A stretch of 64,000 nucleotides of DNA from Pseudomonadota bacterium (GCA_021812385.1 JAKANO010000016.1:1-64000); one strand, 5' to 3'; positions 24,791 to 61,446 are shown, numbered from the stretch's first letter. The notes: generated by a model not told the origin, from the sequence alone. Made by a program: numbers and translations.

Positions 24791-24853
24791 AACGCGGAGG
24801 ACGCAGAGTAAGCAAAAGTCTTTTTCGGTTTTCCCGCTGCGTCCTCCGCGGTG
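24791..24853. repeat. Palindromic element A ('GCGGAGGAC' dialect)
   Basis: CGCGGAGGACGCAG (24793-24806) and CTGCGTCCTCCGCG (24837-24850), perfect 14-bp arms; CGC repeats at 9-bp period. Confidence 0.85.
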
Positions 24854-24871
24854 AACGATTTTTGTTGTTGG

Positions 24872-25681
24872 TTACCCGAACTTACCCGTGATGTAGTCTT
24901 CAGTCGCTTTTTGTTTCGGCGTGGTGAAGATGGTGTCGGTATTGCCGAACTCGATGAGTTCACCCAAGTACATGTAAGCGGTGCAGTCGGAGACGCGAGC
25001 CGCCTGTTGCATGTTATGCGTCACGATGACGATGGTGTAGTCCTCTTTCAACTCGTGAATCAGCTCTTCGATGTGCGCGGTGGAAATCGGATCGAGCGCC
25101 GAGGCCGGTTCGTCCAGCAGTACCACTTCGGGCTTAACCGCGATGGCGCGCGCGATGCATAGGCGCTGTTGCTGCCCGCCGGAGAGGCTGTTGCCGGATT
25201 GCTTGAGCTTGTCTTTCACTTCATTCCACAGCGCGGCTTTCTTCAAAGCCCATTCCACACGATCGTTCATTTCATGCGTGGACAGGCGCTCATACAAGCG
25301 CACGCCAAAGGCGATGTTGTCGAAGATCGACATTGGAAAAGGGGTGGGTTTTTGGAACACCATGCCGACCTTGGCGCGCAGGCGATTGAGGTCTTGGCGC
25401 GCATCCAGAATGTTCTCGCCATCCAATACGATCTCGCCATCGGCTTTTTGGTTCGGGTATAGCTCATACATCCGGTTGAAGGTGCGCAGCAATGTAGATT
25501 TACCGCAGCCGGAAGGGCCAATGAAGGCGGTCACCCGATTTCCCGGAATGCTTAGATTGATGTTTTTGAGTGCGTGGAACTTGCCGTAGTGGAAGTTCAA
25601 GTTGCGCACCGCAAGTTTTTCCGATGCCGCGTCTTGCGCTTCGAGCGTTGCATGCTGGGTTGGGAGTGCGTAATTGGTCAT
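24872..25681 (-). CDS. pstB: Phosphate ABC transporter ATP-binding protein
   Basis: [36 protein letters not shown]. Confidence 0.97.
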
Positions 25682-25696
25682 CGCTAAATTTCCCGT

Positions 25697-26542
25697 TTAA
25701 CCGCGTGTGCCTTTTTGGCGGAACATCACACGCGCAATAATGTTGAGGGCAAGTACACCGAAGGTAATGAGTAATGCGCCAGCCCAGGCGAGATTGTGCC
25801 AGTCATCGTAAGGACTCATGGCGAATTGGAATATCACGACCGGTAAATTGGCCATGGGCGCATTCATGTTGCTGCTCCAAAATTGATTGTTCAGGGCGGT
25901 AAACAGTAAGGGTGCCGTTTCGCCCGTGATGCGTGCAACGGCCAGCAACAGGCCGGTGATGATGCCGGCGCGGGAGGCGCGCAGCGTCACCAACGTAATC
26001 ACTTTCCAATGCGGGGCGCCGAGTGCGGCGGCGGCTTCACGCAAGCTGTTGGGAACGAGCTTTAGCATATTCTCGGTGGTGCGCACGACCACCGGGATTA
26101 CTATAATAGATAGGGCAAAGGAACCGGCCCAGCCCGAAAAGTGATGCACGTGAGCCACATACACCGAATAGATAAATAAGCCGATCACAATAGAAGGCGC
26201 TGATAGCAGAATATCATTCACGAAACGCGTAGCCGAGGCCAGCCAACTTTTTTGTCCAAACTCTGCCAGGTAGACGCCGGCCAGAATACCGATCGGCGTA
26301 CCGATCAGGGTCGCGATTGAAGTCATCATAAAGCTGCCGGCGATGGCATTCAGCAGGCCGCCCTGGCTACCGGGCGGCGGTGTCATTTGGGTGAGCATTT
26401 GCAGGTCGATGCCGGCCAATCCTTGACGCAACAATGTCCACAGAATCCAAGCCAACCAGAATAAGCCGAAGGCCATGGCGAGCATGGATACCGTCAAATT
26501 TAGGGCGTTGATTAGGCGGCGGCGTGCGTAGAGTGAAAACAT
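25697..26542 (-). CDS. pstA: Phosphate ABC transporter permease PstA
   Basis: Membrane permease sequence and pstSCAB synteny. Confidence 0.95.
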
Positions 26543-26543
26543 A

Positions 26544-58910: not shown

Positions 58911-60869
58911 ATGTCCGAACTAGAAACCCTCTTCTCCGCCCAGGGCGTATTCGCCCAAACCATCCCCGGCTATCGTCTGCGCCCACAGCAATTGGAAATG
59001 GCGGAGGCGATTCTGCAGGCGATTCGCGCCCAAGAAAAACTCGTGGTCGAGGCCGGCACCGGCACCGGCAAGACCCTGGCTTATCTCGCCCCGGCCTTGC
59101 TGGCCGGCGGCAAGGTCGTGATTTCCACCGGCACCAAAACGCTGCAAGACCAGTTGTTTCTGCGCGACATTCCGGCGGTGCGCGACGCCTTGAAGTTGCC
59201 GGTCACCATCGCGATGCTGAAAGGCCGCGCCAATTACGTCTGCCGTTACCACTTGGCGCATGCGCAGATCGATGCGCGGCTGTATCACAAGGAAGATGTG
59301 CAGCATCTGCAAAATATCGCGCGCTTCGCCGCAACCAGCGCCAGCGGCGATAAGGCAAGCTGCACCGATGTGCCGGAAAACGCCGCGGTATGGGCTTATG
59401 CCACGTCCACGCGCGACAATTGCTTGGGCCAGGATTGCAGCGATTACAAGGAATGCTTCGTCATGTCGGCGCGCAAAGCAGCCTTGGCGGCCGATGTGGT
59501 GGTGGTCAACCACCATTTATTTTTTGCCGATGCGATGTTGAAAGACGAAGGCGTCGCCGAACTCTTGCCCGCCGCCAACACCATCATTCTGGACGAAGCG
59601 CACCAGTTGCCGGACACGGCCGGGATGTTTTTCGGCAGCACCATCAGCAGCGGACAATTAATGGAGCTGGCGCGCGATGCGCGAGCCGAAGGCTTGGTCA
59701 ATGCCAAGGATTTCGCGCCCTTGCCCGAGGCCGCCTCGGCGCTGGAAAAAGCCGTGCGCGACCTGCGCTTGGCTTTCCCGCAAGAAGCCTTACGTTTGCC
59801 AGTGGCGCGCGCCGAACGCTTCAAACAATTCGATCCGGCGCTGACGCTGCTGAAAGAAAAGCTTACGGATTTGGAACATGCCTTGGCGTCGCAAGCCGAA
59901 CGCGCCCCGGGCTTGGATAATTGCTGGCAGCGCGCGCAAGCGATCCGCGCCATGCTGGCCGACTGGCGCGTTACGCCGCAAGCAGACAAGCAGAGCAATA
60001 CCGTGCGCTGGGTGGAAGTTTTTCATCATGCCGTGCATCTTAATTCCACGCCCTTGTCGATTGCCGAAACTTTTAAATCGCAGCTGGACAGCACGCCGCG
60101 CGCCTGGATCTTCACCTCGGCGACGCTCGCCGTGCGCGGCGATTTCCGCCATTACCAAGAAGAAATGGGCTTGGATAGCGCCAAGACCGCGCATTGGGAC
60201 AGCCCCTTCGATTACGCCAATCAAGCGCTGTTGTATGTGCCGCAGTACTTGCCCGAGCCGAATACCGACGGCTACACGCAAGCGGTGGTCGCGGCCGCGC
60301 TACCGGTATTGCAAGCCAGCGGCGGGCGCGCCTTTTTGCTGTTCACCAGCTTGCGCGCGATGCGCGAGGCGCATGCCTTGTTGCAAACGGCGTTTGCCGA
60401 AGCGAATTTGGATTTTCCTTTATTGCTGCAAGGCGAAGGCTCGCGTACCGAGTTGCTGGAACGTTTTCGCAAGCTGGGTAACGCCGTACTGGTGGCTTCG
60501 CACAGTTTCTGGGAAGGCGTGGATGTGCGCGGCTCGGCTTTGTCCCTGGTGATCATCGATCGCCTGCCGTTTGCCGTGCCGGACGATCCGGTGCTGTCGG
60601 CGCGCATCGATAAAATGAATAGCGAAGGCCGCAATGCCTTCATGGAGTATCAGCTGCCGCAGGCGGTGATCACGCTGAAGCAAGGCGCCGGGCGCTTGAT
60701 CCGCGACGAAACCGATCGCGGCGTGTTGATGATTTGCGACCCGCGCTTGCTCGGCAAGCCCTATGGCAAGCGTATCTGGCAGAGCTTGCCGCCGATGCGG
60801 CGCACCCGTGAGTTGAGCGCGGTGGAAGCGTTTTTTGCCGGCCTGCATGCGCTTGGGAAAGCCGAGTGA
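58911..60869 (+). CDS. dinG: DinG/YoaA family ATP-dependent DNA helicase
   Basis: Walker A EAGTGTGKTLAYL, DEAH box, Fe-S cysteines, GAGRLIRDETDRGV. Confidence 0.93.
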   Translation: MSELETLFSAQGVFAQTIPGYRLRPQQLEMAEAILQAIRAQEKLVVEAGTGTGKTLAYLAPALLAGGKVVISTGTKTLQDQLFLRDIPAVRDALKLPVTIAMLKGRANYVCRYHLAHAQIDARLYHKEDVQHLQNIARFAATSASGDKASCTDVPENAAVWAYATSTRDNCLGQDCSDYKECFVMSARKAALAADVVVVNHHLFFADAMLKDEGVAELLPAANTIILDEAHQLPDTAGMFFGSTISSGQLMELARDARAEGLVNAKDFAPLPEAASALEKAVRDLRLAFPQEALRLPVARAERFKQFDPALTLLKEKLTDLEHALASQAERAPGLDNCWQRAQAIRAMLADWRVTPQADKQSNTVRWVEVFHHAVHLNSTPLSIAETFKSQLDSTPRAWIFTSATLAVRGDFRHYQEEMGLDSAKTAHWDSPFDYANQALLYVPQYLPEPNTDGYTQAVVAAALPVLQASGGRAFLLFTSLRAMREAHALLQTAFAEANLDFPLLLQGEGSRTELLERFRKLGNAVLVASHSFWEGVDVRGSALSLVIIDRLPFAVPDDPVLSARIDKMNSEGRNAFMEYQLPQAVITLKQGAGRLIRDETDRGVLMICDPRLLGKPYGKRIWQSLPPMRRTRELSAVEAFFAGLHALGKAE

Positions 60870-60946
60870 ACCTCCAAGACGCCAAGAACGCCAAGGCGTT
60901 TTTTGTTCTAAGCGTTTTTCTTGGCGTTCTTGGCGTCTTGGCGGTT
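60869..60946. repeat. Palindromic element F ('GCCAAGA' dialect) immediately after the helicase stop codon
   Basis: AACCTCCAAGACGCCAAGAACGCCAAG (60869-60895) vs CTTGGCGTTCTTGGCGTCTTGGCGGTT (60920-60946), one mismatch in 27 bp. Confidence 0.95.
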
Positions 60947-60974
60947 TAACGATTTTTATTGGATGAACAATGCG

Positions 60975-61346
60975 ATGAAAATTGCCTGGATGCTGGCTAT
61001 TCTGCTGTTGCTGGGCGCGCAGGCGCAAGCCGGGGTCAGTGGGCGCATCGTATTAGGCGCGCAGCCGGTGGCGGGTTTTCAATACTATGCGGGCAAGCGC
61101 GTTTGGGGCGAGCTCAAAGTAGGGGATGCGCTGGCGCTGATCCGCGAGACGGATAATGCTTACGATGCCAATGCAATTCGCATCGAATGGCACGGTGAAA
61201 AACTCGGCTATGTGCCGCGCGCCGGCAACGAAGACCTCGTCAAGTTATTGGACAAGGGCTTGAAGGTATCCGGGCGCATCATTAATTTACACGACGGCCG
61301 CAGTCATTGGCAGCGCATCTTGTTCGAGGTGCTGCTGGAAGAATAA
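60975..61346 (+). CDS. Exported HIRAN-domain protein (start MKIAWML; ATG 60963 also possible)
   Basis: Signal peptide then VAGFQYYAG..LKVGDALALIRETDNAYDANAIRIEWHGEKLGYVPRAGNEDLVKLLDKG. Confidence 0.85.
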   Translation: MKIAWMLAILLLLGAQAQAGVSGRIVLGAQPVAGFQYYAGKRVWGELKVGDALALIRETDNAYDANAIRIEWHGEKLGYVPRAGNEDLVKLLDKGLKVSGRIINLHDGRSHWQRILFEVLLEE

Positions 61347-61381
61347 GACTTGCTCTGAACCGTGGGGCGCGCTTGGTTTAC

Positions 61382-61446
61382 TTGTAGGGGCGAGGCATGC
61401 CTCGACCGTTAATCAAAAGCGGGTCGGGCATGCCCGACCCCTACAA
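61382..61446. repeat. Second palindrome family (TTGTAGGGG...CCCCTACAA)
   Basis: Outer TTGTAGGGG/CCCCTACAA; inner nested palindromes CGAGGCATGCCTCG and CGGGCATGCCCG. Confidence 0.9.

Follow-up and report, generated by a model that had tools for sequence, protein, structure and literature searches.

The window analysed here, a stretch of 64,000 nucleotides from a Pseudomonadota bacterium (GCA_021812385.1 JAKANO010000016.1:1-64000), corresponds to contig C19 of a 3.29-Mb genome (G000) that is 94% complete. It contains six hairpins, Elements A to F, whose arms are built from iterated short units, and which we relate below to a longer palindrome enclosing a small gene of the GxxExxY family (TIGR04256). 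Elements B, C and D lie within or next to what we take to be the nuo operon, the gene names being our own reading of it. All six had been proposed in an earlier note on this DNA and are present at offsets of at most about 2 bp:

24791..24852, no strand assigned: Element A, gene-less hairpin with CGC(G/A)GAGGA units at 9 bp
31802..31872, no strand assigned: Element B, CACAGAG dialect, 9/9 bp, nuoC|nuoD junction
38819..38892, no strand assigned: Element C, CGCnGAG dialect, 8/8 bp, nuoI|nuoJ junction
44845..44983, no strand assigned: Element D, CACAGAG dialect, 9/9 bp, 3' of the last nuo gene
58728..58848, no strand assigned: Element E, CGCCAAG dialect, 8/9 bp, loop of ~69 nt
60870..60946, no strand assigned: Element F, CGCCAAG dialect, 8/9 bp, loop of ~24 nt

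The arms start with (A/G)CC(G/A)C and continue with two to three C(G/A)CnnAG units at spacings of 8/8, 9/9 or 8/9, after which the arm recurs in inverted orientation. Element A has just two clear units per arm, and the loop of Element D is long and imperfect. Strong hairpins are predicted for all six (-34 to -65 kcal/mol). A scan of the window for pairs of C(G/A)CnnAG units separated by 1-3 bp returned 20 matches, 18 of them inside Elements A to F, against a mean of 1.9 and a maximum of 6 in 50 dinucleotide-model shuffles, which bears out the idea of one blueprint of iterated 8-9 bp units. An Rfam search of the window returned tRNAs and nothing else.

The same architecture recurs throughout the genome, as the proposed copy-number check confirmed: G000 holds 353+371 copies of the general unit pair, against 55+55 for a backward control, and the unit CGCCAAGACGCCAAG is present 35 times in forward and 34 times in reverse orientation (control: none), mostly in converging pairs. 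In a 1.63-Mb sample of G000 we identified 66 complete palindromes, which fall into at least four dialects, CGCCAAG, CAC(A/G)GAG, CGCnGAG and CGC(A/G)AAG, each with its specific spacing, and further dialects (CACGAAT, CGCAGAT and ACAGGAT) exist in relatives, here a set of 60 genomes from one order; the diversity of dialects suspected from the window is therefore real. The two arms of one element belong to the same dialect. Compared with random pairing within a dialect, the arm-to-arm match is closer in CACRGAG (p=0.0002, partly from sub-dialects), weakly so in CCAAG (p=0.035), and not significantly so in two other dialects.

All G000 dialects also share an outer module of ~15 bp, absent from the earlier description, in which an A-tract, placed ~14 to 9 bp outward from the first unit, is followed by T-rich sequence and ACC, with a mirror image on the opposite side, as in the following two instances:

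58713..58727, + strand: left outer module of Element E, A-tract, then TGTTGA ahead of ACC
60947..60959, - strand: right outer module of Element F, T-tract, reading on the - strand as A-tract ... ACC

Loop lengths cluster at ~14-30 and 65-100 nt, and among the 66 palindromes the loop sequences are unrelated between copies except in nested or composite elements; in this sense the earlier suggestion that the elements do not arise by simple copy descent is supported. One composite, a CGCCAAG hairpin holding a CACAGAG hairpin, is duplicated at unrelated places in opposite orientation (C4:14621 and C6:69259); the two copies are distinguished by a one-unit difference that affects both inner arms and by a spacer change that is the same in the two outer arms. 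Other nested cases are C1:160770, C13:124049 and C6:32834 (with a CCCTCTCCC palindrome). A preference for nesting was considered and dropped, because a rough estimate gives about two such cases by chance alone.

The GxxExxY gene and its arms

TIGR04256 was tested as a partner because translated CACAGAG repeats are often found at the start of GxxExxY proteins. We found that both GxxExxY genes of G000 are exactly enclosed by arms, one by CGC(A/G)AAG arms between trpD and trpC, the other by CGCCAAG arms between ispF and ispD. This gene-bearing form measures ~440 bp and consists of an arm of three iterated units, the GxxExxY gene and the inverted arm. Taking an inverted-repeat score of at least 14 as enclosure, 23/25 GxxExxY genes of the relatives are enclosed against 1/50 offset controls, as are 56/77 in named genomes of many phyla, including archaea (Methanosarcinales), against 2/130 controls. 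The family of repeat-built palindromes is very widespread, its gene-bearing form being present in well over ten phyla. The scan of genome contigs used the pattern GPGLLES[AVI]Y and so covers a subset of the family; it was built from a closer five-sequence alignment, the all-family alignment having no conserved columns. The arm is in frame with the GxxExxY open reading frames (ORFs) and reads into them, which fits the earlier remark that these iterated short palindromes, scattered over very many environmental genomes, are often mis-annotated as peptides. A phage or plasmid vehicle can be set aside as the main carrier, since GxxExxY was found in 0/50,697 phages and 7/72,556 plasmids.

Concerning the protein, its profile matches lie far above the curated cut-offs (TIGR04256/PF13366: 145 bits vs 35 and 144 vs 22). 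E21, D61, E71xK73 and Q85xxxY89 are invariant in a 16-sequence alignment, and the Q of QxxxY is nearly invariant in another comparison. An AlphaFold2 model (pLDDT 95.5) has as its best PDB matches SSO0001 (4ic1, E 8e-4), which we take to be a Cas4 protein, LHK-Exo and lambda exonuclease. By predicted fold and residues, GxxExxY is a small Cas4/RecB-like PD-(D/E)XK nuclease, and is probably active. With Cas4 and the RecB-family nucleases (PF13366, PDDEXK_3) it shares the fold and the E-D-ExK-QxxxY motif; unlike them, it is minimal (120 aa), is encoded inside a palindrome, and has no relative in a PDB sequence search. In the literature searched, from which preprints and most subscription journals were absent, we found nothing that connects palindromes with GxxExxY or DUF559, so that an earlier description may exist.

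Gene-less palindromes tend to accompany the gene. The ratio of unit pairs to the backward control has a median of 5.5 in the 11 genomes with GxxExxY and of 1.67 in the 49 without (p=3e-6; p=0.003 outside the genus). Dialects moreover follow the protein, a relationship not foreseen in the earlier note: arm distance correlates with protein distance (Mantel r=0.41, p=0.0005; r=0.43 for between-phylum pairs only), and dialect labels on the protein tree require fewer changes than in any of 400 shuffles. Because linked parts covary anyway, a prediction in trans was set beforehand, namely that CACGAAT palindromes are common only where a CACGAAT-armed GxxExxY exists (G003, G006 and G044). The prediction held: these three genomes have 26, 124 and 69 CACGAAT unit pairs respectively; of the 57 others, G005, a fragmented assembly, has 24 (87% complete, 410 contigs), G007 has 5 and the rest 0-1 (hypergeometric 1e-4). 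At L075, L080 and L082, the same site in two families, the CACGAAT-armed element adjoins a MacB-like permease gene.

The trpD|trpC junction holds GxxExxY elements in several families of the order (L031, L073, L085, L090, L093, L097, L116 and L145), with units CGCAAAG 9/10, CGCAGAG 8/8 and 9/9, CGCCAAG 9/9, CACAGAG 8/8, and CACGGAG. Some of the proteins look orthologous (84% identity for L031-L085, 65% for L031-L097) and others come from a separate clade (L073, 48%); probably, therefore, some elements were retained and drifted, and the junction was also used more than once.

Insertion sites and turnover

The elements prefer gene junctions, in agreement with the intergenic bias proposed earlier: with ORFs as gene annotation, 23/43 are fully intergenic against 1.6 expected, the gap to each flanking ORF is usually 10-50 bp, and 11/43 lie between divergent genes. 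Orthologous sites are variably occupied, as the proposed check of presence and absence showed. The nuoC|nuoD site of Element B is filled in G000 and G005 and empty in five relatives (G001, G003, G006, G007 and G009), where the two genes overlap. At the nuoI|nuoJ site of Element C, G000 has a CGCnGAG palindrome, G001 CGCAAAG, G004 ACAGGAT, G006 a GTGAGGA-type palindrome, G003 a CCCTCTCCC palindrome, and G005 none. Additional empty orthologous sites were found among the relatives.

A few putative 8-9 bp flanking duplications occur among gene-bearing elements as scattered cases. In G000 the GxxExxY element at C12:190152 (L032) is flanked symmetrically by an 8-bp direct repeat, TCCAATTC, a possible target-site duplication.

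Other small genes inside palindromes

Other small gene families of the same 60 genomes were taken as controls, and two of them behave in the same way. TIGR02436 genes (S23p four-helix) are enclosed in 21/26 cases against 1/52 controls (L205-L233), their arms having a best period of 7 in 34/40 and of 8 in 6/40, while GxxExxY arms have one of 8, 9 or 10 in 133/154. DUF559 genes (PF04480) are enclosed at 16/28 loci against 0/56 controls, mostly by arms of CCCTCTCCC hairpins (L234-L255). The arm unit class is specific to the enclosed gene family, which again goes beyond the earlier note. We see in S23p and DUF559, each with its own arm class, the strongest sign that enclosing a small gene in an iterated palindrome of its own is a general design.

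The intervening sequence (IVS) of Coxiella 23S rRNA, 428 nt long, has 28-bp inverted ends, tandem heptads and an S23p ORF (PMC4990558), and for these reasons fits the S23p arm class; the 7-bp class around TIGR02436 genes probably represents non-rRNA relatives of the 23S IVS.

The CCCTCTCCC-type palindrome also occurs alone in G003 and G006, and inside the element at C6:32834 of G000. At L215 a four-helix gene sits in ~74 bp arms of CTAGGACGACG-like units, unlike the other four-helix loci.

Explanations for the association of arms and genes

We consider it reasonably probable that Elements A to F are gene-less members of a two-component selfish family, whose gene-bearing form encloses GxxExxY and whose hairpins are dispersed with, and probably by, this arm-matched nuclease. 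GxxExxY would recognise the arms of its own dialect in folded DNA, as a hairpin or cruciform, and nick or cut them, after which repair or replication would copy the hairpin into another gene junction. Gene-bearing copies would remain few, often at one junction in related species; gene-less hairpins would multiply, swap loops and turn over, and the joint drift of protein and arms would give rise to dialects. We infer recognition, cleavage and nuclease-driven copying from the correlation between enzyme and putative substrate. The earlier note implied that the palindromes have no known gene partner, or that a REP-associated tyrosine transposase (RAYT) is the one to seek; naming a PD-(D/E)XK nuclease instead makes of an orphan repeat a two-part system that can be tested, points to a possible role for a large uncharacterised nuclease family, ties that family to the long-standing puzzle posed by rRNA intervening sequences and S23p, and lets the arm-protein pairs serve as natural data on the specificity of a minimal Cas4-like nuclease.

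Several observations weigh against this proposal. Linkage inside one element yields covariation in cis even without recognition, so that the trans test alone addresses recognition, and the three positive genomes of that test are not independent, because they carry the CACGAAT-armed gene at one orthologous site, although G044 belongs to another family. For two of the four G000 dialects (CACRGAG and CGCnGAG) no GxxExxY gene was found in that 94% complete genome, and G004 and G005 are rich in palindromes yet have no GxxExxY gene. Gene-bearing copies often lie at the same locus in sister species and thus do not demonstrate movement of this form. There is no regular target-site duplication (TSD), and no excess of one among the 43 old elements. 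Finally, the palindromes resemble miniature inverted-repeat transposable elements in being short, non-coding, intergenic and presumably non-autonomous, with terminal inverted repeats, but differ from ordinary ones by their unrelated loops, and also by the absence of a consistent TSD and of a DDE/HUH transposase partner. The lack of a regular TSD and the unrelated loops together argue against ordinary cut-and-paste.

Both of these features would suit an explanation in which the palindromes are moved by host replication or repair, through template switching or through gene conversion at hairpins, or else by a transposase of another, unknown kind; the genes for GxxExxY, S23p and DUF559 would then be cargo. 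The closer similarity of arms within than between elements in two dialects (CACRGAG and CCAAG) would suit it as well. We consider this explanation unlikely, since it does not account for the separate arm class of each of three small protein families, for the covariation of protein and arms, or for the co-occurrence of dialect and gene. We give about the same low weight to hairpins acting at the RNA level, in the manner of the rRNA IVS, where the stem is cut from the transcript (e.g. by RNase III) and tolerated in operons, the protein being a passenger or an RNA-processing factor. The ~440 bp size and layout indeed match the Coxiella IVS (PMC4990558), with stem-forming inverted ends, a small ORF in the loop and tandem short arm units, the S23p family is enclosed here by 7-bp-unit arms, and elements lie within the co-directional nuo operon. 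However, IVSs are located in helices of rRNA and their product is a four-helix bundle protein, unlike the 8-10 bp units, protein-gene junctions and nuclease (TIGR04256) described here; 11/43 elements lie between divergent genes, a fold like that of Cas4 and lambda exonuclease, together with the catalytic residues, points to an enzyme acting on DNA, and dispersal and dialect matching are left unexplained. A role as intrinsic terminators in both directions, or as other regulatory hairpins that selection maintains in the host, appears improbable: the stems are strong, with an A-tract on the left and a T-tract on the right, but they are placed between co-transcribed nuo genes, the same junction in sister species is empty or holds unrelated palindromes, and neither the iterated dialects nor the link to a nuclease would follow.

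RAYTs are long-lived, low-copy partners of REPINs. In REP/REPIN-RAYT systems, formed by repetitive extragenic palindromic (REP) sequences, the partner gene bears the same repeats at its ends, and repeat and protein vary together (PMC8266576, PMC3733652). The present family is similar in its many short intergenic palindromes with a low-copy partner gene, and the gene-bearing form at trpD|trpC resembles RAYT persistence. It differs in that the partner is a PD-(D/E)XK nuclease rather than an HUH Y1 transposase and lies inside one long palindrome of iterated 8-10 bp units. That the elements themselves are REPs or bacterial interspersed mosaic elements mobilised by RAYT is very improbable, despite their many intergenic copies and three weak Y1_Tnp matches in G000, none of them listed on C19, consistently with the absence of RAYT from the window noted earlier. 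The GTAG/CGTC tag is absent from the palindrome foot, the terminus being ACC(G/A)C with the outer A-tract/T-tract module, and G004 and G045 show a unit-pair excess without any Y1_Tnp match. The proposed check for co-occurrence led to the rejection of RAYT as the partner: Y1_Tnp genes (PF01797) are enclosed in 2/24 cases, both by classic REPs (ACCGGCTnnAGCCGGT) and not by iterated-unit arms, against 23/25 for GxxExxY.

More tentatively, the nuclease-linked family may belong to a broader class of bacterial and archaeal selfish 'gene-in-a-palindrome' systems, a possibility that we raise without leaning towards it. In such systems a small protein that is not a transposase, be it a Cas4-like nuclease, a Vsr-like nuclease (DUF559) or a four-helix pentamer (S23p), would recognise the repeated units in its own hairpin and spread gene-less hairpins in trans, by hairpin-based copying that needs no recombinase of the DDE, HUH, tyrosine or serine type.

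Apart from Elements A to F, the window carries a separate repeat class at 61385-61446, a palindrome GTAGGGGCGAGGCATGCCTCGACC ... GGTCGGGCATGCCCGACCCCTAC of which each arm is itself palindromic.

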